Virus record (IMG/VR): IMGVR_UViG_3300032275_000189
Span: 1 to 62,447 of that record
DNA length: 62,447 bases
Reading direction: 5' to 3' (one strand)
DNA from: a virus
Positions 4,852 to 62,447 of the stretch are shown one piece after another (within the stretch, counting starts at the first letter, position 1; every line of letters starts with the position of its first letter). A model generated the notes under the pieces. That model was not told where the DNA came from and ran no database searches. It saw only the letters and a program-made list of their open reading frames with translations. Made by a program: the position numbers and the translations under genes.

Positions 4852-5623
4852 GTGCCACGGTGGAAAATTCTATTTGGCACAATGGATCATTTCGCATTTT
4901 CCTGAGAAGTACACAGAGATGACGTACTTGGAACCCTTTTGCGGGGGTGCGAATGTTCTTTTGAATAAAGAAAAATCTGTTATCGAGATAATGAATGATC
5001 TCGATCCAAACGTCATTCAAATCTATCAGGCTTTACGAGATGAGCCGAGAGAGTTGATTCGGCGTCTGAACCTCTGCAAATATTGCGAAGAAACATTCGA
5101 TAGCGCCATCAAGAAGACTCAATACGACGATTATCTGGATCAGGCGGTCAACGAATTTATCGTTCGACGCATGAGCCGTGGCGGGTTGAAAAAAGCATTT
5201 GCTTGGAGCAATCGTCTTAGAGGCGGTCAACCTGGAGATGTCAACGCATGGATGACAGCCGTGAAAGGCTTGCCTGATTTAGCCGAGCGAATCAGAGAAG
5301 TTTATATCTTCAATAAGCCTGCCCTTGCGGTAATGAAGGCATTCAATTCGCCAAATACTTTCGTATATTGTGATCCACCGTATTTGCACGAGACACGAGT
5401 ATCCAAAACCGTATATGCGTCGGAAATGACTACCGACGATCATATTGAATTGGCTCATGCTTTGAACGCATTTCAGGGCAAGGCCATGATTAGCGGATAT
5501 GCTTCGCCGCTGTATAATCGACTGTACAAAGAATGGAATGTCGAAAAGAAAAAGATTGCGAATCATTCGTCGCAACAAAAGACCAAAGAGAAAAAGGTCG
5601 AAGTGATTTGGAAAAACTACTGA
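4826..5623 (+). CDS. DNA adenine-N6 methyltransferase, D12 class (Dam-like)
   Basis: The 265-residue protein follows the D12 class layout. An N-terminal SAM site (KCHGGKFYL, residues 9-17) precedes LEPFCGGANVLLN near 35-47 and the catalytic DPPY motif at 183-186. It should transfer a methyl group from SAM to adenine N6 in a short site, which could shield phage DNA from restriction or mark it for packaging or replication. It is the first of two D12 enzymes in the window (the other is at 40951). No restriction endonuclease partner is nearby, so it looks like an orphan phage methylase. Confidence 0.9.
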   Translation: MKTIRPVFKCHGGKFYLAQWIISHFPEKYTEMTYLEPFCGGANVLLNKEKSVIEIMNDLDPNVIQIYQALRDEPRELIRRLNLCKYCEETFDSAIKKTQYDDYLDQAVNEFIVRRMSRGGLKKAFAWSNRLRGGQPGDVNAWMTAVKGLPDLAERIREVYIFNKPALAVMKAFNSPNTFVYCDPPYLHETRVSKTVYASEMTTDDHIELAHALNAFQGKAMISGYASPLYNRLYKEWNVEKKKIANHSSQQKTKEKKVEVIWKNY

Positions 5624-10161: not shown

Positions 10162-12210
10162 ATGAACGAGAGAAAGCGTATCGTAAGGCAGAATACCACA
10201 AGAAAAACCCAACACGATAAATTGAAAGAAGCATTGGCAAAGAAGCCAACCGCATCGCATTTGAATAGTCAAGGCATTTCGCCATTACAAATGCAGCAAC
10301 TTTCTGGAGTCCCGCCAGAAAAAGAAAAGCTACTCAAAGAACGACTTGTAAAGAATGCTAAGAATCGTAAGAGATTTAGCAATCGCCCTCTCACCATTGT
10401 CCTGTCCGATCAAGTAGCAGGCAATAGCTATATGGAATCATTGAGTGCGACAGATGGTCGCTCCAATGAATGGCCAACACCTGCGTGGTTCCGAACAAGT
10501 GGGCCTGTAGATGTTTCCGTGATTATTCCATTGTATAAAAGCGATAGTGTCATTCAGGATTTGATCCGCACATGGCCCATTGAAAATGGAAAATACAGCG
10601 TTGAAATCATTTTCGTTGACGACCAATGTCCAAAGAAATCCAAAGACGTAGTATTGCAAGCATGGACGCTTCGCAAAGCTGAACTCAAGGGTCCAGTCGG
10701 CAAGATCATTTTCAACTCGACCAACAAAGGCTACGGACAAGCCTGTAATGCAGGGGCCGCTGCTGCGTCAGGCAAGTATTTGATATTCTTGAATGCCGAT
10801 ACAAAAGTGACTTCAGGTTGGGTTGATCCGATGATCGAGCTATTTGACGATCCTAAAACCGGATTGGTCGGGAACATGCACCTTAAAGAAGGTGGCGACC
10901 ACAACGGAACGATTGACAGTGCAGGCTCCGAGTGGAAATGGAACGATATGTCGTTTGTCCACATTGGACGCCACTGCTATCGAAAACAAGGAATCTCAGG
11001 TCCATACAAACCAGAAAACGCACCAAGAGACTTGTTGGAAGTCGGCGAGCGTGAAATGGTAACTGGCTGTTGTTTTACAATGAAGGCTTCATTGTTTGAA
11101 TACATTGGCGGGTTTAATCCAAACTATAGAATTGGATATTGGGAAGATTCAGAAATCTGTCTCAACGTAAGAGAGCTTGGCTACAAAGTCATGTTCCAGC
11201 CAAAATCTGTAATCTACCACAAGCTAGGCCATACAGCCTCCGGTGGTCACAGATACTTTGGCCACAATAAACTTTACTTCATGAATAAATGGGTCAAGTC
11301 TCACCGACTTGATGATCTATTGTTGACAGAAGCACGATCAAAAAACGAAAACCCTGTAACACGCATTCTTGTTCGTCGTAGCAATGCGCATGGAGACGCA
11401 CTGGTCGCTGCCGGTGTATGTGCAGGTCTTAAAAAGAAACATCCTAACGCTCACATTATGTTCTGCACATTGTTTCCTGAAGTCATCTGTCAGAATCCTT
11501 ACATTGATGAATTCATTGATGTGCGTCAAATTCATCAGACTCCATTCGACGTGTTTTACAACTTGGACTTCTGTTATGAATGGCGTCCAAGGATTAACAT
11601 ACTCACTGCCTATGCTGAGGCTGTTGGTGTCAAAAAAGAAGATTGCAAAGTTTGCATGGTGCCACAACCTATTCTTGGCTTCAAGCTACCAGATAACTTT
11701 GTTGTTGTTCACGCTGGTCGCACGGATTGGGCTGGAAGAGATTGGCCACATGAAAACTTCGTTGAACTATCCGAAAGGCTAATGGCTGCTGGCGAAAACG
11801 TCGTAGCGGTAGGGAAGTATTCAGAGGGGCCAATTCCTTGCACTCTTGATTTGAAGTCAAAGACTTCCATTGCAGAAATGGCCTATGTAATGAGCAAAGC
11901 AAAAGCGTTTGTTGGAATTGATTCTTTGCCTATGCACGTCGCCCAAGCCTTTGATGTGCCTGGAGTGTCCTTCTTTGGATGCGTGTGGCCAGAATCAAGA
12001 ATCTATAGCAACAAGATGCGTGGAATCAACGCCCAAGACTTGCCATGCTTAGGATGTCACCATCGCAAGCCAGCACCATCCACTGTAACCAAGACCTGCG
12101 AAACAGGCACACTGGATTGCATCAAAAAAGTGTCAGTAGACGATATGTGGCACAAAGTGCAAGATTTACTTGAGGAAGTGAACAATGGACGTATTAGCCT
12201 CTTGGGATGA
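10162..12210 (+). CDS. Two-domain glycosyltransferase, GT2 fused to GT9-like domain
   Basis: The 682-residue protein has a basic N-terminal leader (1-110). A GT2 GT-A domain follows, with SVIIPLYKS near 118, the EIIFVDDQ strand, NKGYGQACNAG and the NADT DxD-type motif, running to about 370. The C-terminal half from about 390 starts ILVRRSNAHGDAL and contains FVVVHAGRTDW, KAFVGIDSLPMHVAQAF and a late Cys-x2-Cys pair, typical of GT9 heptosyltransferases. One chain may thus add two sugars in sequence. It is soluble with no membrane segment. AAGGA precedes the start, and the end overlaps the deacetylase gene by 26 bp. Confidence 0.88.
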   Translation: MNERKRIVRQNTTRKTQHDKLKEALAKKPTASHLNSQGISPLQMQQLSGVPPEKEKLLKERLVKNAKNRKRFSNRPLTIVLSDQVAGNSYMESLSATDGRSNEWPTPAWFRTSGPVDVSVIIPLYKSDSVIQDLIRTWPIENGKYSVEIIFVDDQCPKKSKDVVLQAWTLRKAELKGPVGKIIFNSTNKGYGQACNAGAAAASGKYLIFLNADTKVTSGWVDPMIELFDDPKTGLVGNMHLKEGGDHNGTIDSAGSEWKWNDMSFVHIGRHCYRKQGISGPYKPENAPRDLLEVGEREMVTGCCFTMKASLFEYIGGFNPNYRIGYWEDSEICLNVRELGYKVMFQPKSVIYHKLGHTASGGHRYFGHNKLYFMNKWVKSHRLDDLLLTEARSKNENPVTRILVRRSNAHGDALVAAGVCAGLKKKHPNAHIMFCTLFPEVICQNPYIDEFIDVRQIHQTPFDVFYNLDFCYEWRPRINILTAYAEAVGVKKEDCKVCMVPQPILGFKLPDNFVVVHAGRTDWAGRDWPHENFVELSERLMAAGENVVAVGKYSEGPIPCTLDLKSKTSIAEMAYVMSKAKAFVGIDSLPMHVAQAFDVPGVSFFGCVWPESRIYSNKMRGINAQDLPCLGCHHRKPAPSTVTKTCETGTLDCIKKVSVDDMWHKVQDLLEEVNNGRISLLG

Positions 12211-12805
12211 TGGATCAACTGCTGATCTTAAAATGGCAGAGCTTATGGCACGTTACAATGTGCCAACCATCTTCTATTGGCCGTCCATGCTAGGCAAAGC
12301 CAAGAATATGGCTATGACTAGCTCGTGGTTGACTGAGGAAAATTGCAAAGAGATTGCCAGCAGATTTGAAATTGGATCACATTCCGCAAGCCATCAACCG
12401 ATGAGCAAGATGACCATCCCACAATTAGGAATGGAAATCACAGATTCTCGTAAGCATTGGCAGGATTTAACCGGACAAGAGATTGAGTCTTTTGCTTATC
12501 CGAAAAGCAGCATGAACAGCTTGACCAAAGCTCTCATTCGAGGAGCAGGATATAAGTCTGCTCGAACCAGCATTCCGGGTCATTTGCGACCCGGCGACGA
12601 TCCTTTTGCAATTCAATGCACTGTTCAGATCGGCATCGACCGTATTGAATACGTCGATAAATGCTGGGAATATTTTGCCGATGAGATGTTGGCCAAGGCC
12701 GATCCTGACAGCGTATTTTATATCTTTGGAAACTCTTGGGACGTGGAAGCGTACAACGATTGGGACGCCCTGGAAACACTTCTCAAGAAGCTGACAGCAC
12801 ATTGA
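12185..12805 (+). CDS. Polysaccharide deacetylase (NodB/CE4-like)
   Basis: The 206-residue protein has the CE4 pattern: SWDDGS at residues 6-11 (the TFDDG motif), GSHSASH near 62-68 giving the two metal-binding histidines, and FAYPKSS further on (the RxPY-equivalent region). It should remove acetyl groups from N-acetylated sugars. There is no signal peptide, so it acts on a cytoplasmic precursor. GAGGAAG lies upstream, and the overlap with the fused glycosyltransferase gene implies a joint pathway. Compared with secreted CE4 enzymes it is compact but complete. Confidence 0.8.
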   Translation: MDVLASWDDGSTADLKMAELMARYNVPTIFYWPSMLGKAKNMAMTSSWLTEENCKEIASRFEIGSHSASHQPMSKMTIPQLGMEITDSRKHWQDLTGQEIESFAYPKSSMNSLTKALIRGAGYKSARTSIPGHLRPGDDPFAIQCTVQIGIDRIEYVDKCWEYFADEMLAKADPDSVFYIFGNSWDVEAYNDWDALETLLKKLTAH

Positions 12806-18705: not shown

Positions 18706-19482
18706 ATGGGGTATAATCGCTACATCGACTGGAAGCCGGAACCGGCAAACTCAAAGATTCTACAGATATATTCCAAGGGCTTGGAGTATGCCTTGGTTTC
18801 TTCCGACTATGAGCAGTGCCATCCGTTTGTCTGGTGCAAGGATTTCTTGCATGACGTTATGTACGGAACCCTCCACAATAAGTGGTTTGAAATATACAAA
18901 TTCAAATACAACCCTGCTCTCGATCCGGCTCCTTGCCTTGATCGGGTTAGATTGCTGCTCACAAACTCAAAAGACAAGAAGTTCGCAGAGAAAATCCCGG
19001 CTGTTCTTGATTTCATCAATCAAATTGAAGAACGCCTCAAGATCAAAAAGTCATTTGCTCGGCAATGCGGCTATCCACCCGAAGCATACCAAAAAGCTGG
19101 TGTGTTTATGTTCGAGGGAAGCAAAAGATGGATTCAATCGCCGCCGATGCTCTCGCTCTACACCCTGTTATTGCGTGTAGGGTTCTGTCACACAGTAGGT
19201 GACTCCTTCATGAAAACAATCGAAGGAGTCAAGTCTGGTGAGATCAAGCCTTACCAGAAGAAGGACGGATACTGGCTCAAAAGCTCAGATGTCGCCCTTC
19301 AAAAGATTTTGCGGGTCGGCGACCGGCGAATCTTCTACAGAGATATTCAGTTGAACTACCCTAGCAATATGCAGATCGACTCGATCCACAATAGGCTGGG
19401 TATTATCGGGTTTGCTACTGACATGATGTATAAGGCCATTGGCCAACCCGTTCTCGTTCCGTACTGGCACTATCAAAAGTGA
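18706..19482 (+). CDS. Uncharacterised partner gene of the amidoligase
   Basis: The 258-residue soluble protein has no recognised catalytic motif. It is rich in aromatic residues and Lys, with a helical middle (about 85-115). GGAGG at 18695-18699 fixes the ATG at 18706. It lies 9 bp upstream of the amidoligase gene under one sigma70-like promoter, so it is most likely a partner, adaptor or substrate-handling protein in the same pathway. Confidence 0.7.
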   Translation: MGYNRYIDWKPEPANSKILQIYSKGLEYALVSSDYEQCHPFVWCKDFLHDVMYGTLHNKWFEIYKFKYNPALDPAPCLDRVRLLLTNSKDKKFAEKIPAVLDFINQIEERLKIKKSFARQCGYPPEAYQKAGVFMFEGSKRWIQSPPMLSLYTLLLRVGFCHTVGDSFMKTIEGVKSGEIKPYQKKDGYWLKSSDVALQKILRVGDRRIFYRDIQLNYPSNMQIDSIHNRLGIIGFATDMMYKAIGQPVLVPYWHYQK

Positions 19483-34229: not shown

Positions 34230-34374
34230 CCATTTCGCCCACCGTGTCGTTCCGTCTGGGCAGATGGTCCCCTCACGTTTCATCTCCTGAAGTAAATGGA
34301 TGAATATTTACAAAATGGAAAAACTCTTTGCAGAACATGCCATAAAAAGGCCCATTCTAAATGGGGAAGTCATC

Positions 34375-35214
34375 ATGTCGAGTAATTCAGATTTAGCTGA
34401 AAGAATGAAACTATACGAGTTAAGCGAAGCGGGGCGCAAACTGATGCCCTTGCTGCCGGTCATCGCACGGCTTGATGGCAGGGCATTTCACAGTTTTTGC
34501 AAGGGCCTCAAACGGCCATATGATGAGCGAATGTCAAGGCTCATGATTGATTGCACCAAATATTTGGTGCAAGAGACGAACGCAAGTTGCGGATACACTC
34601 AGTCTGACGAGATCACCCTTGGGTGGTTTGCTGCGGACTTCGACTGTGAAATCTTCTTTGATGGCAGAATAAGCAAAATGCTCTCCATCTTGGCGGCTAT
34701 GCAGTCGGTATATTTCAACAAGAACCTTGACAAGCATTTGCCAGAAGAATATTCGGCCAAGATGCCGACATTCGACTGTCGAGTATGGTGTGTTCCAAAC
34801 GCTATAGAAGGTGCCAACGCTTTCTTGTGGAGAGAACACGACGCCACAAAGAACAGCATCTCAATGGCTGCTCGTACTTACTTCAGCCACAAACAGGTTG
34901 AAAACAAGAACGGCCCACAGATGCAAGAGATGCTTTGGAAAGAAGAAGGCATCAACTGGAATGACTATCCTGCGTTCTTCAAGCGAGGCACATTCGTACA
35001 ACGCAAGAAGACCATGAAGCCGTTCACTGTTGAAGAAATGGATCGGTTGCCGTCTAAGCACAAGGCGAGAACCAGCCCCGCTGACAGCTTGTTCTTTGAA
35101 CGTACCGAATATGCAGAACTGGATATGCCACCATTCAACAAGGTGGTAAACAGACCAGGAGTGATCTTCTTTGGTGAAGAACCAAGATTACAAGTCGCAG
35201 AAGCGGCAGCATAA
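34375..35214 (+). CDS. tRNA-His guanylyltransferase-like protein (Thg1 family)
   Basis: The 279-residue protein matches Thg1: DLAERMKLYE near the start, LPVIARLDGRAFHSFCKGLKRPYD (metal-binding Asp and Gly-rich loop, near 31-54) and CGYTQSDEITLGW near 78-90 with the second acidic metal site. Thg1 enzymes add nucleotides in the reverse 3'-5' direction, either the G-1 base of tRNA-His or missing 5' bases in tRNA repair. No tRNA lies nearby. GGGGAAG fixes the ATG at 34375; an upstream ATG at 34300 would add 25 residues. Confidence 0.87.
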   Translation: MSSNSDLAERMKLYELSEAGRKLMPLLPVIARLDGRAFHSFCKGLKRPYDERMSRLMIDCTKYLVQETNASCGYTQSDEITLGWFAADFDCEIFFDGRISKMLSILAAMQSVYFNKNLDKHLPEEYSAKMPTFDCRVWCVPNAIEGANAFLWREHDATKNSISMAARTYFSHKQVENKNGPQMQEMLWKEEGINWNDYPAFFKRGTFVQRKKTMKPFTVEEMDRLPSKHKARTSPADSLFFERTEYAELDMPPFNKVVNRPGVIFFGEEPRLQVAEAAA

Positions 35215-37940: not shown

Positions 37941-39356
37941 ATGAACCTGAATTGGCTCAACAACATCTGTTGGCTTTCTGACTCGTACAAAATCAGCCAT
38001 TGGAAGCAATATCCACCTGGAACACGTCGCATTTACTCGTATTTCGAGTCCCGTTCCGGGTCAGTTCACCCCGCCACGACCTTTTTCGGCCTCCAATATT
38101 GGCTGAAGCAATATCTGGTTGGACAGGTCGTCACCGCCGAGAAAATCGACCGAGCGGAACGATTATTCAACCGACACTTCGGCGGCAAGGTCTTCAACCG
38201 TGAAGGTTGGGAATATATCCTGAACGCCCACGGCGGTCGTCTTCCAGTCGAAATCAAAGCGGCTCCCGAAGGAACCGTAGTTGGCGAATCCAACGTCCTG
38301 ATGACGGTGGAAAATACCGATGACAAGGTGGCTTGGTTGACTAACTACCTGGAAACCCTTCTGGTTCAGGTATGGTATCCTTCGACGGTGGCTACACAAA
38401 GCCGAGCGATGAGAAAGGTCATCCTCAAGTACCTTGCCCTGACCGGCGACACTTCACTGGTTGACTTCAAGTTGCACGACTTTGGCTTCCGTGGAGTTAC
38501 TTGTCCCGAACAAGCAGCAATCGGCGGCGCAGCACACCTTCTGAATTTCAGAGGAACCGATACTGCACCAGGATTGGTTTTCCATGACGAGTTTTACGGA
38601 CAGTACGATCAAGAATGTGCTGGCTTCTCGATTCCGGCTGCTGAACACAGCACGATTACATCGTGGGGTCGTGAACACGAAGTCGATGCTTGCCGCAATA
38701 TGCTGGTGCAATATCCAGACGGACTCGTGGCAACGGTGAGCGACAGCTACGATATTTTCAACTGCTGTGCCAACATTTGGGGCGGCGTCCTCAAGGACGA
38801 AGTTCTGGCCCGTGATGGCGTGCTAGTTGTTCGCCCGGACTCCGGTGATCCTCCGACCGTTGTGGTTAAGGTGTTGGATATTCTCGGCGATAAGTTTGGA
38901 GTCACCGTCAACTCAAAGGGATATAAAGTCCTGCACCCAAAGGTTCGAGTTATCCAGGGAGACGGCATCGACTTCAAGATGCTCGACCTGATTCTCTCGG
39001 CTATGGAGAAGGCTGGTTGGTCGGCTGACAACATCGCTTTCGGTTCGGGTGGTGGATTGCTCCAGAAACTCAACCGGGATACGCAACGGTTCGCCTTCAA
39101 GTGTTCTTCGGCGGTCGTTGGCGAGGAAGTCCGAGACGTTTACAAGCAGCCTGTCACGGACGGCGGCAAGAAGTCCAAAGCTGGACGACTGAAGCTGGTG
39201 TGGTCAGAGGCGGGCGCACATGGCAAGGTGTTGCAAACCGTGAGTGAGGCCGATCCTCGTCCAGACCAGTTGCAGTTCGTTTTCAGAAACGGCGAACTTC
39301 TGGTGGATCAGACGCTTACTCAAATCCGAGAAGCGACTACGCATACGATTTTGTAA
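37941..39356 (+). CDS. nadV: Nicotinamide phosphoribosyltransferase (NAMPT, NadV)
   Basis: The 471-residue protein has the normal NAMPT length and motifs: LSDSYKISHWKQYP near 12-25, YFESR, LHDFGFRGV, GTD, SIPAAEHST near 228-236 with the catalytic His, and VVRPDSGDPP near 292-301 for phosphoribosyl binding. It joins nicotinamide and PRPP to make NMN, rebuilding NAD+. This fits phage NAD-salvage (for example after host NAD depletion) and would also feed the NAD-using ADP-ribosyltransferase and glutamate dehydrogenase. It has its own sigma70 promoter. No NMN adenylyltransferase is seen here. Confidence 0.93.
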   Translation: MNLNWLNNICWLSDSYKISHWKQYPPGTRRIYSYFESRSGSVHPATTFFGLQYWLKQYLVGQVVTAEKIDRAERLFNRHFGGKVFNREGWEYILNAHGGRLPVEIKAAPEGTVVGESNVLMTVENTDDKVAWLTNYLETLLVQVWYPSTVATQSRAMRKVILKYLALTGDTSLVDFKLHDFGFRGVTCPEQAAIGGAAHLLNFRGTDTAPGLVFHDEFYGQYDQECAGFSIPAAEHSTITSWGREHEVDACRNMLVQYPDGLVATVSDSYDIFNCCANIWGGVLKDEVLARDGVLVVRPDSGDPPTVVVKVLDILGDKFGVTVNSKGYKVLHPKVRVIQGDGIDFKMLDLILSAMEKAGWSADNIAFGSGGGLLQKLNRDTQRFAFKCSSAVVGEEVRDVYKQPVTDGGKKSKAGRLKLVWSEAGAHGKVLQTVSEADPRPDQLQFVFRNGELLVDQTLTQIREATTHTIL

Positions 39357-49309: not shown

Positions 49310-50311
49310 ATGAGCAGCACCAATAACCCAAATCATCAGCAAAGAAATCTGGACAATTGCGCTGTGCCAGGAATTCCTGCGGACGTAAATCTCGATCCTT
49401 CTCCTCCGTACTGTGGCAAAGACCCAGAACGTGACGCAGACAATCGAAGAGGAATCAATGACGACAGTTTGAATTTCCTCAAAGACGAAACAATGAAAAA
49501 AACTGGCTTCGGGTCCAGAGTTGACTGCGACCCGATGCAGCGTGGTTTCATTATTAACGATCTGGAGAATCCTGAGCGGAATGTCCTCTATCGTTATTCT
49601 AAATCAATTCGTGGCACAGATGAAGCCATGTTGGATATGTTTAACAACATTGTCGTCATTGACGAGGACGGCAAGGCTTGGCCAATCCCTGTGATGTTAG
49701 GACCGCCAGAGAAAGCGGTTGCTGCAATCGTGCAAGACAATGTTCATAAGGACGAGACATTAGTTGTTGACCGTCTCAAGTTGCCACTGCTGGCTTTGAC
49801 GCAAACGCAAATTGATTATGATCTTGATCGCTATACATACCACAAAGCAATCAATCTATTTCGCAACAGCAGCAATGGTCGTCCAGGTTTGGCGATTAGC
49901 GAAAAATATAACAAAGACACCATATTCGGTTTGGCAAGAGGCGTTCCAGTAAATATTGGCTATTCAATCACGGCATGGACCATGTACCGTGAAGATATGA
50001 ATCAGATAGTGGAACAAATTCTAACAAAATTCAGCCATGCGGCATACATACGAGTAACAGGTGTCCCTTGGGAGGTCATGGTCAAGCTGGACTCTATTGC
50101 TAACAACCTGGAAGTTGAGCCGGGCGATCAAGCAATTAGAGTAATTAAATACGAATTTAATATGACGGCTCAGACCTATATACCTCAACCGATTGAACGC
50201 AAGAAGGCAGTCCTAAAAATGAAGATTGACTTTGTTGACGGTATGACCGAGGAAGAAATAACTGAGGTTATGGCGAGAATAGAAGAATCTGTCAAGGAAT
50301 TAGAATGCTAG
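49310..50311 (+). CDS. Tail sheath stabiliser, T4 gp15-like
   Basis: The 333-residue protein shows the gp15 pattern: DMFNNIVVIDEDG, WPIPVMLGPPEKA, LKLPLLALTQTQIDYDLDR and above all NIGYSITAWTMYREDMNQI followed by VEQILTKF, which lines up with the equivalent gp15 segment of T4. It forms the ring at the top of the tail. It starts the tail operon, with AGGAGAAAC before the ATG, and its position before the sheath gene matches T4 order (15, 18, 19). The N-terminal 60 residues are an extra polar extension. Confidence 0.75.
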   Translation: MSSTNNPNHQQRNLDNCAVPGIPADVNLDPSPPYCGKDPERDADNRRGINDDSLNFLKDETMKKTGFGSRVDCDPMQRGFIINDLENPERNVLYRYSKSIRGTDEAMLDMFNNIVVIDEDGKAWPIPVMLGPPEKAVAAIVQDNVHKDETLVVDRLKLPLLALTQTQIDYDLDRYTYHKAINLFRNSSNGRPGLAISEKYNKDTIFGLARGVPVNIGYSITAWTMYREDMNQIVEQILTKFSHAAYIRVTGVPWEVMVKLDSIANNLEVEPGDQAIRVIKYEFNMTAQTYIPQPIERKKAVLKMKIDFVDGMTEEEITEVMARIEESVKELEC

Positions 50312-50530: not shown

Positions 50531-52894
50531 ATGGCGATTCTACAGGGGTTCCCGCCTTCTAACACCATTAGCCCAAGTGTTAGAATCACTGAGAAAGACT
50601 TGAGCTACATTGCTCCTGACCAGTCCTTCCACCGTGCGGGCTTGGTCGGCTTTGCTTCTAAGGGTCCAATAAATTTGCCGACTCTTATTGCAACAAACCG
50701 TCAATTGCACGTTACATTTGGCAATCCACACCCGGACGTTGGCGATCCGTTCCTCATTTACGCAGCCGAGCAGTATTTGCTTGTTGCCAATGAGTTATTC
50801 ATCGTTCGAGTTGCGGATACCGATCCGGTCAGTGATGAACAGGCACTATCCGCCACGGTTGATGTTCCTGCTGCTGGCACATTGGTAAAGATTGAATCAG
50901 CTTACGCAGGAGTGAGCGGGTCATATACGTTTGACGCAGACTCATTCTTCCGCTGGAGACTGAATGGCAATCTGTCCGCTAAGACACTGGTTGTCTTGAC
51001 AGGGACTTACTTAGTTCAAGAAGTCGTTGATGACTTGAACACACAACTCGACTTTGAAAACGACGGCATTCAGTTCTACAAGACAGGAACAGGCACAATT
51101 GGTGTTAAAACCATTTGGGCATATGGACCTGACGCTTCTTTGGAATTGGTTTCGGTTCAGGACGCCATTTATGGCAAAACAGTCTTGGCCGGAAACCCAA
51201 CTGGCCTTGGTACTGGCATGACTCAAGCATCGGTTACTGGCTCAATGGCTATGTATCCTAACGTGGCATATCAGACTCCTGGTGTTTACGACTTCACAGG
51301 TCTAACAGGTTTGAATCTTCAGATGGTTGTAGACGGCACGGACAACGTGCTGATCGACGGCGTTGTTCAAGTAATTGACCTGTCGGCTCTCGAAGGCGCA
51401 TCGAATGTCATCGCTGATGTCATTATCGCCATCAATGCTGAAAAGGTTGAAAACGGCGGCACTCTCCCAGGTGGTTGGACGGCTGTAGCAGTTGGCAACA
51501 ACGTACAGTTCAACACAAATCACACTGGAAACGATGCACGTCTTCGCATTAAGCCAGACAGCACAGCAGAAGCACTATTCGGCATCGACACATCAACACA
51601 CGGTGGCTCAAGCCCAGAAGGTGTCACTGGTGCCGTTGGCATTGCAACATACGGTATCGTAACTGGCGCTGTGAACAACACCGGCAGCATCTCGTTCTCC
51701 GTCAATGCTGACAGCCCTGGCATCGAAGGCAGTCAGACTCAGATCAGAATTACAAACGACGTTCGTGAAGACCACTTTATTATCGAAATCTTCAATAACG
51801 GCGTATCGGTAGAAGCATGGGGCAACTTGACAAAGAACCAGACAAGTCGGTTCTATGTTGAAACTTACATGGCTCTGGTTTCGGATTTCATCCGAATCAG
51901 CGACAACACTGCTGAAGGTGCTGGTCCTTTGGACGGTATTTACAGCTTGTCTGGTGGATCGGACGGCATTCCGTCTGACCCGGACTTACAGGACGCTTTG
52001 ATTATCGGCAATCAGATCGGCTACACCGGCATCTACACGATGTCCGAGCCAGAGCAGATCGACATCGACCTCATCGCTGTTCCTGGTCACTCCAGCACCA
52101 GTGTAGTAACGGCCCTGTTGGACTTCTGCCAGAACACCCGTATGGACTGCTTGGCGATCATTGATCCTCCATTCGGTCTGACGGTTGGTGAAATCGTAGC
52201 GTGGCAGAACGGTACTCACCCACTGAACCTCACACGTTTTGACTCGGACTTTGGTGCATTGTACTGGCCTTGGGTTAAGATTCGTGACAACTTCAACCGG
52301 GTTGACGTTTGGGTTCCACCTAGCGGCTCAATCATGGCAGTTATCGCTCGAAGCGATTTCTTGTCGGCTCCTTGGTTTGCTCCGGCTGGTATGAATCGTG
52401 GTATCGTTCCGGCGATCACCGACGTTTACAACCGTCCGACGCTTGCAGAGCGTGACTTGATGTACGGAAATCGTAACTGCATCAACCCAATCGTTCACTT
52501 CAATGATGTTGACGGCTTCTTGGTTTGGGGTCAAAAGACCCTGCAACGCCGCCCAACAGCTTTGGACCGTGTAAACGTGCGTCGATTGATGTTTTACCTA
52601 GAGAAACGAATTCGCTCTGCGAGCCGTCAGCTTCTATTCGATCCAAACGACGAGACGTTCCAGCGCAAGTTTGTAAGCATTGCTTCGCAGATTTTGCGTG
52701 AGGTTCAGGTGGGTCGGGGCGTTACCGACTTCATCATCAAGGCCGATGCTGAATTGAATACTCCTGATGTAATCGACCGTAATGAGTTCCGGGCGCAAAT
52801 TGGCGTTCAGCCAACAAGAGCCGCTGAATTCATCTTCATCGAGTTCTCGATTCACAGAACAGGCAGCTTCACCGAGAACGCAGATACCTTCTAA
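50531..52894 (+). CDS. Contractile tail sheath protein, T4 gp18-like
   Basis: The 787-residue protein has the sheath layout: the N-terminal linker SVRITEKDLSYIAPDQS, then AGLVGFASKGPINLPTLI; variable surface domains in the middle (about 100-500, Gly/Thr/Asn-rich); and the conserved C-terminal core with LDRVNVRRLMFYLEKRI followed by RSASRQLLFDPND and a final FIFIEFSIHR strand that bonds to neighbours. It is longer than T4 gp18 (659), the extra being in the outer domains. It forms the contracting outer tube of the tail. Confidence 0.93.
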   Translation: MAILQGFPPSNTISPSVRITEKDLSYIAPDQSFHRAGLVGFASKGPINLPTLIATNRQLHVTFGNPHPDVGDPFLIYAAEQYLLVANELFIVRVADTDPVSDEQALSATVDVPAAGTLVKIESAYAGVSGSYTFDADSFFRWRLNGNLSAKTLVVLTGTYLVQEVVDDLNTQLDFENDGIQFYKTGTGTIGVKTIWAYGPDASLELVSVQDAIYGKTVLAGNPTGLGTGMTQASVTGSMAMYPNVAYQTPGVYDFTGLTGLNLQMVVDGTDNVLIDGVVQVIDLSALEGASNVIADVIIAINAEKVENGGTLPGGWTAVAVGNNVQFNTNHTGNDARLRIKPDSTAEALFGIDTSTHGGSSPEGVTGAVGIATYGIVTGAVNNTGSISFSVNADSPGIEGSQTQIRITNDVREDHFIIEIFNNGVSVEAWGNLTKNQTSRFYVETYMALVSDFIRISDNTAEGAGPLDGIYSLSGGSDGIPSDPDLQDALIIGNQIGYTGIYTMSEPEQIDIDLIAVPGHSSTSVVTALLDFCQNTRMDCLAIIDPPFGLTVGEIVAWQNGTHPLNLTRFDSDFGALYWPWVKIRDNFNRVDVWVPPSGSIMAVIARSDFLSAPWFAPAGMNRGIVPAITDVYNRPTLAERDLMYGNRNCINPIVHFNDVDGFLVWGQKTLQRRPTALDRVNVRRLMFYLEKRIRSASRQLLFDPNDETFQRKFVSIASQILREVQVGRGVTDFIIKADAELNTPDVIDRNEFRAQIGVQPTRAAEFIFIEFSIHRTGSFTENADTF

Positions 52895-52935: not shown

Positions 52936-53535
52936 ATGGCAAGATCAGGTGCTGGGCGTGATATGGGATTGGGCCAATTGGCCGGTCCCGATCTAGTCTT
53001 CAAAAGAAAATACAGATGGACATTTGAAGTTCAGCCGTACTGCGGCGGTACAACATCGTTGATCCCTGCTCACTTCGTAAAGTTGGCTTCACGGCCTAAC
53101 CTAACGGTTGAAGAAACGGAAATCAATTTCTTGCATGGCAAGATGTGGATTCCGGGCAAGGGAAGTTGGGAAACCATTACTGTTACTTACTATGACATTG
53201 GTAACGGCGGCAATGGTATCACAGGTTTGTTCAGTTGGTTAGCAACGGTTTACAACTTCACCGATCCAATCGGTCTGCACCAGTCCTCGAAGAGAGGAGC
53301 AGGTCCAGGATCGTCTGGATATTCCGCAGACGGCACATTGTTGCTATTTGATGGTTGCGGTGTTGCAATGGAACAGTGGAACCTAAGTCATATGTGGCCA
53401 CAGGCCATTAACTTTGGCGAACTGGACTATTCTTCTTCGGAAGAAGTAACGGTTGAATTGACGCTTCGCTACAGCGAAGTACAGTATATTCCACTTTGCG
53501 GTGGTCAAGTCAATCCTTGCTGTGCAGGCTGCTAA
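52936..53535 (+). CDS. Tail tube protein, T4 gp19-like (copy 1)
   Basis: The 199-residue protein has the tube pattern: RKYRWTFEVQP near 29, LASRPNLTVEETEI near 51, the W-x-P-G-K-x-x-W-E turn and the QAINFGELDYSSSEEVTVEL strand. It should stack as the inner tail tube. AAGGAGA precedes the ATG. The C-terminus holds Cys residues (NPCCAGC). It is the copy closest to the sheath gene and so probably the main tube subunit. Confidence 0.9.
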   Translation: MARSGAGRDMGLGQLAGPDLVFKRKYRWTFEVQPYCGGTTSLIPAHFVKLASRPNLTVEETEINFLHGKMWIPGKGSWETITVTYYDIGNGGNGITGLFSWLATVYNFTDPIGLHQSSKRGAGPGSSGYSADGTLLLFDGCGVAMEQWNLSHMWPQAINFGELDYSSSEEVTVELTLRYSEVQYIPLCGGQVNPCCAGC

Positions 53536-53559
53536 TCGACCTACAGATAGGATATACCC

Positions 53560-54375
53560 ATGCCAAGATCAAGTATACCCGTGCCAAAATCATGGACACC
53601 AAGATCAAGGGATATGGGTCTTGGACATCTTGCGGACTCAGACCTTGTATTCAAGCGCAAATATAGATGGGCGTTTGAAGTACAAGGTCTTGTCCGTGGG
53701 GATGTGCCATCTCATTATGTAAAGCTGGCCGCTCGACCCAACCTCAATGTCGAAGAAACAGAAATCAATTACCTGCATGGAACCGATTGGATTCCAGGTA
53801 AAGGTAAATGGGAAACTATTTCTGTTACCTACTACGACACCAATGCGGTAGCCATGAAACCCCTCTGGGACTGGCTCGCTTCAGTTTACAACTTCACCGA
53901 TGCAGTCGGATTACACCAAGCGTCAACAAGAAGATCATATGCCGGAATGGGTGTATTGAAGCTCTTTGATGGTTGCGGCACGACTATGGAAACGTGGAAA
54001 TTATACAATGTTTGGCCTCAAGGAATCAACTTCGGCGAATTAGATTATTCGTCATCAGAAGAAGTGGATATTGAACTAACCCTGCGATACAGTGCCGTTG
54101 AAGTATTGCAAAATTGCGGTGCGCCAATCAACCCCGCTTGTGGTGGTTGCTTAGGCATTTCCGTTGGCGGCAACAATAGTTTCAACAATTTTCCTTTGAT
54201 GCCACCAGAAACACTCCCGTTGGGAGCAGGAATTGGCAGTGGTCAAGGATCGCTAAATCCAGGATTGGTTGGTGGAAACGTGAACTTTTTATATGCCAAT
54301 GTTGGTCTTGGTGGAATTCCTTTGAATTCTTCTGCCTTGAATATTCAACTAAGAGTCCCTGGAGCAAGGTTTTAA
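53560..54375 (+). CDS. Tail tube paralogue with Gly/Asn-rich extension (copy 2)
   Basis: The 271-residue protein repeats the copy 1 fold almost word for word (ARPNLNVEETEINYLHG, NFGELDYSSSEEVDIELT) but has a longer N-terminus and a 70-residue Gly/Asn/Leu/Pro-rich C-terminal extension after CGGC. The extension could line the tube or project from a tail end, as in phages with a special tail-tip or terminator tube protein. AGGAT lies upstream. Confidence 0.88.
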   Translation: MPRSSIPVPKSWTPRSRDMGLGHLADSDLVFKRKYRWAFEVQGLVRGDVPSHYVKLAARPNLNVEETEINYLHGTDWIPGKGKWETISVTYYDTNAVAMKPLWDWLASVYNFTDAVGLHQASTRRSYAGMGVLKLFDGCGTTMETWKLYNVWPQGINFGELDYSSSEEVDIELTLRYSAVEVLQNCGAPINPACGGCLGISVGGNNSFNNFPLMPPETLPLGAGIGSGQGSLNPGLVGGNVNFLYANVGLGGIPLNSSALNIQLRVPGARF

Positions 54376-54383
54376 GGTAAATC

Positions 54384-55028
54384 ATGGCACGTAGCGGCAA
54401 CGGCAGAAACATGGGCTTTGACTTTGGGCTAGAAGACCCAAATGCTTGCTTCAAAAGAAAGAACCGCTGGTTATTCAAAATTGAAGACGTGAGCGCAGAC
54501 GGAGTAAGTTCTTTACCTCCATCTAAGGCTGCACGTCCTTCGCTGTCCTTCAAGGAAATTGAAGTTCAACACTTAAATGAAACAGTGTATTATCCTGGCA
54601 AACCTGAATGGAAGCCAATAACACTGACTCTTTATGATCTGAAGAAAAATTCACTCAATCCCGTATTTGAATGGCTGTCCGAGCTTTATGATCCACGATC
54701 CAACAGTCAATACGGACCATCATGTGATGGATTCAAGAAGCCACAAGCCACGTTAGAACTTTACGATGGATGTGGCACAAAGATTGAAACTTGGGTTTTC
54801 GAGACTGTTTGGCCGCAGGCCGTAGAATTTGGCGACTTAGATATGTCCACCAGTGAACTAATCACTTGCGATTTAACCCTCAGATATGACCGAGCTTACA
54901 TCGAAAATGGCGGTGGCGGCGGTGGCGGTGGTGGTGGTGGTGGTGGTGGTGGTGGTTCTGCTGCACTAAGCTATCAAGAATTTTTAAGACTACAGCGTGA
55001 AAGAAATAGAAATTTGATTATTACTTAA
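54384..55028 (+). CDS. Tail tube paralogue with polyglycine linker (copy 3)
   Basis: The 214-residue protein keeps the tube core (RKNRWLFKIEDV, ARPSLSFKEIEVQHLN, the YPGKPEW turn, AVEFGDLDMSTSELITCDL) but is more diverged. After residue 177 it has 17 glycines in a row, then a basic helical tail (ALSYQEFLRLQRERNRN). The linker looks like a flexible tether for the final helix, perhaps to bind a baseplate or tail-end partner. Confidence 0.85.
   Translation: MARSGNGRNMGFDFGLEDPNACFKRKNRWLFKIEDVSADGVSSLPPSKAARPSLSFKEIEVQHLNETVYYPGKPEWKPITLTLYDLKKNSLNPVFEWLSELYDPRSNSQYGPSCDGFKKPQATLELYDGCGTKIETWVFETVWPQAVEFGDLDMSTSELITCDLTLRYDRAYIENGGGGGGGGGGGGGGGGSAALSYQEFLRLQRERNRNLIIT
54911..54957. repeat. GGT/GGC trinucleotide tract coding polyglycine
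   Basis: A run of GGC/GGT codons encodes 17 consecutive glycines inside tube copy 3. It is prone to slippage in steps of 3 bp, which keeps the frame. Confidence 0.9.
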
Positions 55029-55385: not shown

Positions 55386-55934
55386 TCAAGAGTCATTAAA
55401 AATATTGTGCTTTTTGTATATGCTTTTTCCCTTCGATGCTGGTAGTTGTTGGTCCATTTGAATCTGCAAGAAATCGAGGTACTTACGCTTTAGTTCATTG
55501 TAGTTTCGGGCGGTTCGATATAGTTGTCTAAAGTGGTTTAGTATGCAGGTAGTCATATAGTTGAACGCTTTCCCCTTTTTAGGATCGAAGCGATCAATCT
55601 TCTCAAAGCAAATCATGACGCCTTCTTGTACTGCGTCATCCTGGTCAATGAGATTGAACTTTGCGTAACGTACAATATTCTGTGACAGAGTGTAAAACGC
55701 TAATGCCAATTCGTCTTGTACCTGTGAGAACTCAAAAGCTACAACATGATAGGTCTTTTCAATGGCGACCCATGCGGCAGGCTTCTGGTACTTACCCCGC
55801 TTTAACGTCCTTTGTTCAGTTGCGGCGATGTCATCCATAAACATCTGGTATTTGGTACGTTCTTTCTTGGCTTGCTGGAATTTCACAATCAGACTCTCGA
55901 ACGTCTTATTGTTTAGATATTCTGTTGTTGCCAT
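55386..55934 (-). CDS. Late-transcription sigma factor, T4 gp55-like
   Basis: The 182-residue protein carries a sigma region-2-like stretch: QNIVRYAKFNLIDQDDAVQEG, ICFEKIDRFDPKKGKAFNYM and TTCILNHFRQLYR (about 85-145), which aligns in order with T4 gp55 (helical core, F-D-x-x-K, then aromatic helix). It lacks region 4, as gp55 does. It should direct host RNA polymerase to late promoters of TATAAATA type, and such boxes occur in this window. ATG 55934 has AAGGAG. T4 also needs the sliding clamp and gp33, not seen here. Confidence 0.8.
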   Translation of the reverse strand: MATTEYLNNKTFESLIVKFQQAKKERTKYQMFMDDIAATEQRTLKRGKYQKPAAWVAIEKTYHVVAFEFSQVQDELALAFYTLSQNIVRYAKFNLIDQDDAVQEGVMICFEKIDRFDPKKGKAFNYMTTCILNHFRQLYRTARNYNELKRKYLDFLQIQMDQQLPASKGKSIYKKHNIFNDS

Positions 55935-56004
55935 CAAGCTCCTTGAGGCCCCGCAAGGGGGTCCGTGATAAAGAAATTGGGGTATCTATTTACTGCGCCT
56001 ATAG

Positions 56005-59864: not shown

Positions 59865-61052
59865 ATGGCTGATGATACTTTCCGTCCAAGACGGCCACAA
59901 ACCCCGCAAGAAGATGACGATCAAGTTGGTGCGGGTGAAGAGAATGAAAGCGGCATGTCCGCTTTGAATATGGCAGAAAAGATGCGACAACAGGCTGCTG
60001 GCGGCGAGGAAGGTCACTCAGATGACAGCCCTAAGCTAACTGGCAACTTCAATATTAAGGGCATGGAAAATGCCCCGCCTGAATTCATGCAAGCACTGAA
60101 GGCCGCTCAGGGTGGCCCTCAACAAAAGGTTGAGCGTGAAACATCAGGTCGTGAGCCTAAGCGTGGCTTCGGACAAATGTCCGGTGGTGGAGAAGGCCCT
60201 GGATCGACTCCTGCCGCACCTGCAAAGAAGCGAGACGCATTGTCATCTAGCTCTGGTCACTTGAAGGAATTGTTGGAAGGACTGAAAGGTTCGACCACAA
60301 TCTACGAAGAGATCGAATTACCTTCTAGGGGTCGTTTCTATGATGACACCGATGGTCCTGGCAATGGCGTCATTTCTATTCGTCCGATGACGGGTGAAGA
60401 AGAACAAATTCTTGCTACCCCTCGATTCGTTCGTAAGGGTCAAGCCATCAACATGATTTTCCAACGATGTATGAAGGAGCAGTATCGTCCAGAGCAGCTT
60501 CTCACCATTGACCGAACCTACATGCTTATTTACCTGCGTGGTATATCGTATTCCCCGAATTACGACGTTGAGGTAAAGTGTCCTGAATGTGAAAAGAAGT
60601 TCGGGACAACCATTGACCTCAATACGCTATATGTTGAACCATGTCCTGTTGATTATGGTCCAACATTGCAGGACGTATTGCCGACAACCAAGTTGCCTTT
60701 CTCATATCGGCTTTCAACTGGCCGGGATGAGCAAGAGATCACGGAATACCGTGATCGTCGCATCAAGGCTTTCGGTGACGCTTCGGCTGACGATACTCTG
60801 ATTTACAGAACGTCTATGTTGCTCGATAATATCGACGGCTTGACCAATAAGGGAGAGCTACAAATCCTCTTGAAGAATCTGCCAATCAGCGACGTGTCGT
60901 ATGTCCGCAACTGCATCAACGAGCCGCCATTCGGTGTTGACACAAATGTAGAAATTACTTGCCCTAGCTGTCTTCAGGACTTTGAGGTTGATCTCCCACT
61001 GGAGGCAAATTTTTTCTTCCCTCGACGGAAGAAAACCAAGACCCAAGCATAG
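59865..61052 (+). CDS. Baseplate protein, T4 gp26-like
   Basis: The 395-residue protein has a disordered N-terminal third, then the T4-type baseplate (gp26) pattern: IELPSRGRFYDD near 147, ISIRPMTGEEEQIL near 167, LRGISYSPNYDV near 220 and zinc-like VKCPECEKKF near 234-243 and ITCPSCLQDF near 368-377. The tail is basic. It contributes to the baseplate hub. AAGGAGAC precedes the ATG. It heads a plus-strand operon that runs out of the window. Confidence 0.75.
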   Translation: MADDTFRPRRPQTPQEDDDQVGAGEENESGMSALNMAEKMRQQAAGGEEGHSDDSPKLTGNFNIKGMENAPPEFMQALKAAQGGPQQKVERETSGREPKRGFGQMSGGGEGPGSTPAAPAKKRDALSSSSGHLKELLEGLKGSTTIYEEIELPSRGRFYDDTDGPGNGVISIRPMTGEEEQILATPRFVRKGQAINMIFQRCMKEQYRPEQLLTIDRTYMLIYLRGISYSPNYDVEVKCPECEKKFGTTIDLNTLYVEPCPVDYGPTLQDVLPTTKLPFSYRLSTGRDEQEITEYRDRRIKAFGDASADDTLIYRTSMLLDNIDGLTNKGELQILLKNLPISDVSYVRNCINEPPFGVDTNVEITCPSCLQDFEVDLPLEANFFFPRRKKTKTQA

Positions 61053-61252: not shown

Positions 61253-61996
61253 ATGGCAATAAAAGAACGATACCAAAATCCTTCCTGCGGCGATTCAGTA
61301 AATCTCCGGTTGTTTACTTACAACAGCAACAACCGGAGAGATGTGCAGTCTATCGAGAAAGTGGACATTTACACTTACGACGATACCTTCAGGTCGGCTG
61401 ATAACCCGCAAGGATTGCGATTAGTTCAAACTGTTCTTGGCACTGATGTCGTGCAAGAAGCAACAGGTCAATACCTTATACAGTTATCGGTTTCAGACCC
61501 ACTGTATACAATCGGCTCTTATAGAGACGTTTGGTCTGTTGTCTTCGAGGACGGCGAATGTGCGACTGCACAAGTTGCGAATGACTTTCAGATTTATTCT
61601 GATTTGTGGTTCACGACGCCAATCCCGCCAATATACGACTTTAATTTCAACTTCCGTCCTAACAAAATACGAAAAGGATCAAAGCGTTATCTTTTGATCC
61701 AGGTCGTCCCGAATGTTCCACGAGGGTCCGAGATTCTTCCCTACTACGAAAATCTCGCCATAGTCTCAGATTTACGGGTATCTATAGAGCTTGCATGTGG
61801 GGAGTGTGTCCCGGCAGAGCAAGACTTACGCCTGATAGAAGATCGGACTCTCGTGGACTATCGTGAAAAAGGTTACGCATATTTCTTCCTCAATACAGAA
61901 GAATATGATGAAGGCATTTACAATATTTGGTTTGAACTTGCCTTCGGTGAAAATGTGTTCTTGTCCGACAAAAACTCTTTCCAGGTATACAGCTAA
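61253..61996 (+). CDS. Beta-rich structural protein of the baseplate/tail operon
   Basis: The 247-residue protein is beta-rich, Tyr/Asn/Ser-rich and free of signal or membrane segments. It sits directly after the gp26-like pair, and its stop overlaps the next ATG by one base. A virion role is inferred from position and composition. No T4 counterpart recognised. Confidence 0.65.
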   Translation: MAIKERYQNPSCGDSVNLRLFTYNSNNRRDVQSIEKVDIYTYDDTFRSADNPQGLRLVQTVLGTDVVQEATGQYLIQLSVSDPLYTIGSYRDVWSVVFEDGECATAQVANDFQIYSDLWFTTPIPPIYDFNFNFRPNKIRKGSKRYLLIQVVPNVPRGSEILPYYENLAIVSDLRVSIELACGECVPAEQDLRLIEDRTLVDYREKGYAYFFLNTEEYDEGIYNIWFELAFGENVFLSDKNSFQVYS

Positions 61997-62447
61997 TGGC
62001 AATTTTTAATCTGCCCGATGAGCCGGATTCGCCAGCAGGAAAAGCAATACAAACTGCACAGGCTCCTTCAGCGGAACAAATGGCATCAAAACAAATGCCA
62101 AACAAGTTTCAATTAGTTTTCAAGTCAGACCCATATTTGGGCGACAGCATACACGGACTATTGCTTGACCTGGGACGCAAAGAACTGATCTTCAACACCA
62201 TTGAGAACGGTCGATTCGATTGGATCGACTGGCTCTTAGAGGTGCCTGAAGATGAAGTTGTCACGCTATTTTTCTTAGACGAAGACAATAAACACAGGTG
62301 CATATTGGTCATGGAAGGAATTTATGTTTTTGACCACACCTGCAACATGAGCAATTCACAGAACGCCTACGGGATTGATTCACAGGAAAATCTCGAACAC
62401 AAAATCACCGTCCAGTTCACCAATATCGAAAGACTACATCCAGAAGG
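61996..62447 (+). CDS. Structural protein, open at the right edge (partial)
   Basis: The frame from ATG 61996 (TAATG overlap) remains open for 150 residues to the end of the window. It begins MAIFNLPDEPDSPAGKAI, then has a folded beta/alpha part (LVFKSDPYLGDSIHGLLLDL; IDWLLEVPEDEVVTLFFLD). Probably a further baseplate or tail protein of the same operon. Confidence 0.65.
   Translation, partial: MAIFNLPDEPDSPAGKAIQTAQAPSAEQMASKQMPNKFQLVFKSDPYLGDSIHGLLLDLGRKELIFNTIENGRFDWIDWLLEVPEDEVVTLFFLDEDNKHRCILVMEGIYVFDHTCNMSNSQNAYGIDSQENLEHKITVQFTNIERLHPE

Follow-up and report, generated by a model that had tools for sequence, protein, structure and literature searches.

Three adjacent genes directly downstream of the tail-sheath gene in a 62,447-nucleotide virus sequence (the window, a fragment held as a 62-kb virus record) encode, as judged from profile searches and structural models, tail-tube paralogues of the gp19 fold from a contractile-tailed huge phage. 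Tandem tube paralogues are already known as such; the new part is an ancient pair, here called A and B, accompanied by recurrent extra copies of A. With a probability of roughly one half, we propose that A builds the trunk of the tube, that B forms a low-copy end ring, and that the second of the three genes provides a minor, non-essential, extended subunit.

Tail-tube genes of the window

The tail genes of the window and the sequence features discussed below were as follows.

49310..50311, + strand: gp15-like tail sheath stabiliser/tail completion protein, 333 aa (PF16724, 4.5e-23; phrog_227, 3.8e-21)
50531..52894, + strand: tail sheath protein, 787 aa (PF04984, PF17482; phrog_23, 1.3e-79)
52936..53535, + strand: tube copy 1, A type, 199 aa (phrog_4542, 3.4e-24)
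53560..54375, + strand: tube copy 2, A-derived duplicate, 271 aa (phrog_4542, 1.5e-28)
54148..54372, + strand: Gly/Asn-rich extension of copy 2, 75 residues, predicted disordered (pLDDT 41-54, composition)
54384..55028, + strand: tube copy 3, B type, 214 aa (phrog_4542, 9e-27)
54909..54956, + strand: 16-glycine tract of copy 3, a GGC/GGT microsatellite (12, 16 or 21 Gly in near relatives)
54972..55016, + strand: predicted terminal basic helix of copy 3, residues 197-211 (DSSP on the model)
59865..61052, + strand: T4 gp26/gp51-type baseplate hub protein, first of the baseplate cluster (PF12322, 2.5e-16; phrog_150)
61996..62445, + strand: fourth gene resembling the tube fold, D family (~150 aa), truncated by the end of the window (iterated HMM)

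The initial annotation had recognised three tandem tail-tube paralogues, and this was confirmed: three intact ORFs lie on the + strand directly 3' of the 787-aa sheath gene, and all of them also match the phrog_45 tail-tube family in profile searches, while their PF06841 matches fall slightly below the Pfam cut-off. Copies 2 and 3 share 65% and 45% identity, respectively, with copy 1, and chance similarity was ruled out by profile E-values of the order of 1e-24 or better. The nearest named record was the 595-kb uncultured phage LR756511.1 (48% identity). Copy 1 combines a strong ribosome site (AAGGAG) with sheath-like codon usage and a C-terminal Cys motif, and the ribosome site of copy 2 is weak. 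A programmed frameshift of the SPP1 type was rejected for copy 2, since this ORF stands apart and has a start codon and ribosome site of its own.

Several further genes were recorded around this locus. A gp55-like late sigma factor gene (55386-55937, - strand; phrog_234, 4.9e-9) adjoins the tube genes and is found beside them across relatives, including, by eye, the 595-kb phage. The latter (L004; positions 10815-12588) has no sheath gene between its gp15-like gene and tube gene A, and its sheath gene must therefore lie elsewhere. Inspection by eye also revealed a candidate Thg1-like tRNA(His) guanylyltransferase (34300-35214, + strand) and a candidate nicotinamide phosphoribosyltransferase (37941-39356, + strand) in the window.

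Structural prediction of copies 2 and 3

The gp19 tube fold, the beta-sandwich/barrel of gp19, Afp1, and Hcp, was seen in monomer models of copies 2 and 3. The copy 2 model aligned with the T4 tube protein at Z 13.1 over 157 residues (rmsd 2.6), and the copy 3 model at Z 12.6 over 158 residues (rmsd 2.7). Tubes of extracellular contractile injection systems (eCIS) gave Z 11-14 against the two models; the copy 2 core reached Z 13-14 with Pvc5/Afp5 and gp19, and the B model Z 12.6-12.8 with the T4 and KP1 tubes. In the fold ranking for B, the gp19 trunk protein was highest, with gaps mostly within 1 to 2 Z, and comparison of the copy 2 and copy 3 models failed to separate trunk, initiator, and terminator proteins. 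On these models, B retains the complete tube fold and is as similar to trunk proteins as to end proteins.

Tube genes of relatives and their phylogeny

We gathered contigs by scanning viral contigs with each copy, which together with the window and LR756511.1 made 141 distinct contigs, and classified tube genes as A (copy-1-like) or B (copy-3-like). A comparison of relatives for copy number had been suggested for the window, and it revealed two, three, or four sheath-adjacent tube genes: AB in 93 contigs, AAB in 8, and AAAB in 16, or 17 counting one further AAAB contig that also carries a distant fifth match. In most of the other contigs, the tube locus runs to the contig edge.

In a 141-protein tree, all B proteins, including that of the 595-kb phage, formed one clade (SH-aLRT 100, branch 2.29). 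With isolates as outgroup, A and B were sisters, apart from the RaK2-type, RM378-type, and T4 tubes. The trees show that the A/B duplication predates the whole clade, nearly every relative with a complete locus keeping one gene of each type. Copy 2, by contrast, is a later, lineage-specific duplicate of A that was deleted in some relatives, and the origin of the three copies in one duplication burst was rejected because the tree splits the ancient A/B pair from the recent copy 2. The second copies of the window and of contig L013 group together (support 98). In the closest sister lineage (contigs L009, L010, and L012), copy 1 is 93% identical to that of the window, but copy 2 survives as a stub between intact A and B genes, its first 46 codons being fused to a few bases from the very end of the gene. 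The AAAB contigs make up a separate clade, within which the three A positions each form a clade of their own (support 100, 100, and 98), so the four-gene set is stable.

B lies on a shorter branch than A (0.44 against 1.18, and 0.72 against 0.97 in a second tree), which places copy 3 nearer than copy 1 to ordinary single-copy tubes. The earlier description of copy 1 as the standard tube protein is therefore questionable, since A is the more derived type when single-copy tubes serve as outgroup.

Two other arrangements were observed. The AAAB clade (L089-L107 and L069), in which each position is orthologous across genomes, is possibly a better case than the window. In L146 (9094-11593), A and B are followed by an additional A-like protein (304 aa) whose acidic tail repeats about ITDETYIGASEED four times.

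C-terminal extensions

Copies 2 and 3 had been described as carrying a 70-residue Gly/Asn-rich extension and a 17-glycine tether with a basic helix, respectively. Both features are present, but their sizes were corrected. The extension of copy 2 comprises 75 residues (197-271; pLDDT 41-54 in the predicted model) and shows a dN/dS of 0.27 against contig L008. The copy 3 tract holds 16 glycines, followed by the predicted helix at residues 197-211.

The glycine tether is a variable GGN repeat. Among relatives otherwise 93 to 100% identical, it is 12, 16, or 21 residues long, as slippage in a GGC/GGT repeat would give. It is missing from L009/L012: the B proteins of the L009/L010/L012 sister lineage stop directly after ...DRAYIEN, where the window runs on into the glycines. 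The terminal helix codons, compared between the window and L008, carry 14 synonymous and 4 non-synonymous changes in 22 codons, a pattern that indicates constraint on the helix in the lineage of the window. The tether may be a recent, slippage-prone addition that keeps a short basic helix off the ring.

The initial annotation had also spoken of tails growing from copy to copy. The tails exist, but once the tether is set aside, copy 3 has the shortest core of all, and neither tail is clade-wide. Most B proteins of the clade are tailless, and growing tails were rejected as a general trait because, after removal of false matches, tails of at least 12 residues are confined to about a dozen of 54 B proteins. 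One of similar layout is found in L140 (GGGG...AALASYQNIFS against GGGG...AALSYQEFLRL). As separate observations, the B proteins of L032, L140, L004, and L109 have a Gly- or Pro-rich linker and then a short terminal peptide, and the terminal peptides of some B proteins (e.g., ...PPDFMMI and ...VPDFVMF) hint at a recurrent docking peptide.

Expression proxies and selection

Among AB loci, the ribosome site of A was stronger than that of B in 36 of 48 (p 3e-5), and A was closer to the sheath gene in codon usage in 29 of 37 (p 6e-5). In the window, codon scores were 0.087 for copy 1, -0.022 for copy 3, and -0.149 for copy 2, and the ribosome sites followed the same order. Such differences are weak proxies for copy number. 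Sheath and trunk tube proteins stand at a ratio of about 1:1 in known contractile tails. For T4, the RaK2 paper gives 138 and 144 copies of sheath and tube protein, respectively. Given this ratio and the stronger proxies of A, the simplest reading would be that A forms the trunk and that B and copy 2 are minor components. These proxies suggest unequal amounts, with A major and B and copy 2 minor, in keeping with the specialised ends raised in the initial annotation.

Against L008, dN/dS was 0.07 for copy 1, 0.06 for the copy 3 core, and 0.20 for the copy 2 core, the last based on 20.5 synonymous and 15.5 non-synonymous changes over 187 codons.

Comparison with known tail tubes

T4 builds its tube from gp19, with gp54/gp48 as initiators and gp3 as terminator, and has a contractile tail like that of the window phage. 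The initial annotation had set the three window genes against the single tube protein and separate end proteins of T4, a contrast that proved overstated. The T4 gp3 terminator falls within the tube family of gp19 (phrog_45), which makes tube-type paralogues specialised at the tail end standard, and eCIS tube initiators share the tube fold: in Afp1/Afp5, Pvc1/Pvc5, and Alg1/Alg5/Alg7, trunk and initiator rings are tube-fold paralogues (PMC8894135). What differs is the arrangement, since the tube-type genes of T4 are scattered and far diverged, whereas those of the window adjoin in tandem. The window also has no eCIS context, unlike the Afp, Pvc, and Alg systems. An orthologous relationship between B and gp3 was rejected: the gp3 profile scored a mean of 5.4 bits against B and the gp19 profile 22.1 bits, and B and gp3 formed separate clades in a tree with long branches and few gp3 rows.

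Nor are tandem tube copies new, as had been supposed. RaK2 (ORF042-044), 121Q (552-554), and CBB (CBB_205-207) have, like the window, three tandem tube-family genes behind the sheath gene, and the sizes of their products rise from 5' to 3' (227, 257, and 364 aa). The computed masses of 121Q 552, 553, and 554 equal those of gp275c (25.07 kDa), gp274c (28.76), and gp273c (40.42) in the mass spectrometry table of phAPEC6, a close relative of 121Q (PMC7247149), which places all three tube proteins in virions. CBB_205 and CBB_207 were found in CBB virions (PMC5259590). The A and B profiles of the present clade match the first two RaK2-type genes, and the third belongs to a more distant phrog_13438-type family, lies beside gp4, and is in position nearer to T4 gp3. 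The descent of A and B from the RaK2 042/043 duplication was rejected on their separate groupings in the trees. The 042 and 043 types form one group (support 90-92) distinct from A+B (84-91), with separating branches at 95-98; because these first and second copies pair with each other and not with A or B, tandem tube duplication was independent.

Two adjacent tube-family genes also lie near the sheath gene in PA5oct (gp287/gp286) and Atu_ph07 (gp127/gp126), although the second member of each pair belongs to the phrog_13438 type and is not an orthologue of B; both PA5oct proteins are flagged ESI-MS/MS in the phage record. In SPP1, gp17.1 and its extended form occur at 3:1, and the C-terminal extension is dispensable (PMC8718954). 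This phage therefore has minority tube subunits with a C-terminal extension, as we propose for copy 2, but the SPP1 variant arises by frameshift and adds a folded FN3 domain, whereas copy 2 is a separate gene with an extension predicted to be disordered.

Other tube-fold genes

The gene cut by the window end belongs to a compact family of ~150 residues (D), encoded in the baseplate cluster of relatives ~8 kb downstream of the tube genes. Its first 450 bases scored 128 bits with the D profile and 53 bits with a wider tube profile. Orthologues include L008:19008-19523 and L026:18453-19324, and relatives have one D gene or two in tandem (e.g., L026:18453-18875 and 18875-19324). D is a candidate tube initiator. 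The D profile found no relative in the PDB, so this assignment rests on gene position and iterated HMM searches. The PF11091 (gp48) profile matched no record and no control genome and is therefore uninformative.

In three relatives, profile searches also uncovered A-type tube genes far from the tail genes, at a distance of 60-70 kb (L184:8311-8808; L185:13363-14064 and 4879-5424; L186:7438-8475), here called orphans. They may be terminators or spare tube genes, and that of L186 is separated, by eye, by some kb from genes for prohead protease, scaffold, and major capsid protein. Both D and the orphans are putative alternatives for an end ring, which limits what can be said of B.

Possible roles of the tube paralogues

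In the reading that we give even odds, A (copy 1) would polymerise into a high-copy trunk and B would supply a specialised ring of few copies at one end of the tube, the last ring next to the head being the more likely site. Copy 2 would be a minor, non-essential subunit of A type, with a floppy extension along or near the tube end, and may work like the C-terminally extended tube subunit of SPP1. At least two C-terminal Cys residues were found in 76 of 85 A-type proteins, and B has no Cys-bearing C-terminal arm. In phiKp24, the tube C-terminus extends to the ring above (PMC9700779), as do the C-terminal arms of the SPP1 tube (PMC8718954), and the missing arm therefore favours the head-proximal end for B. 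Since neither profiles nor trees link B to gp3, a terminator role would rest on this arm and on the reduced expression signals, and would represent an independent invention from a duplicated tube gene. A further point against this reading is that, in the AAAB clade, the expression proxies mark no single copy as the trunk.

B might instead be a baseplate-proximal tube initiator, comparable to T4 gp54 or to Afp5/Pvc5 of eCIS, with A again as the trunk. The weaker expression signals of B would fit a single ring, eCIS initiators are themselves tube-fold paralogues (PMC8894135), and the B profile searched against PDB sequences ranked Afp5 (0.002) above Pvc1 (0.01) and Afp1 (0.03). However, the A profile likewise finds Afp5, and copy 2, of A type, is structurally nearer to Pvc5/Afp5, so this rank is not diagnostic; the relatives, moreover, encode the separate, compact D family in their baseplate cluster, and we regard an initiator role for B as unlikely. 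Similarly doubtful is a mixed or segmented trunk, in which A, copy 2, and B would polymerise randomly, in stretches, or as alternative tubes. Such a trunk is consistent with the tube fold and purifying selection retained by all copies, with the blending of gp17.1 and its extended form in SPP1 (PMC8718954), and with the presence of all three tandem tube proteins in phAPEC6 virions (PMC7247149). The AAAB clade also fits, as it retains three sets of A orthologues whose ribosome sites are similar. B is nevertheless consistently weaker than A in the expression proxies of AB genomes, and copy 2, having been lost in close relatives, cannot be a required part of the trunk there. The variant with alternative tubes, raised by the initial annotation, is conceivable but has no positive support.

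For copy 2 alone, the deletion in L009/L010/L012, a ribosome site and codon score below those of the other two genes, and the highest dN/dS (0.20-0.27) would also suit a duplicate that is decaying or non-structural and plays no part in the virion. We consider this somewhat less probable still, since copy 2 is intact and under purifying selection in the window and L008 and is common to L013. Beyond the end-ring reading of B, the tube of the clade may, more speculatively, be zoned, two to four co-encoded subunits (A, A duplicates, and B, plus D and the orphans) each occupying their own stretch or end. Each subunit would then bear its own disordered or tethered extension, and the set would be gained and lost like an accessory kit.

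Biological significance

Models of contractile tails usually assume one trunk subunit. The present analysis describes a large clade of uncultivated phages that has kept two ancient tube paralogues and repeatedly added a third or fourth. The AB, AAB, and AAAB series, together with the natural deletion of copy 2, offers natural comparisons for the role of the extra tube subunits. The RaK2-type case shows more than one origin of the arrangement, which is therefore probably useful.
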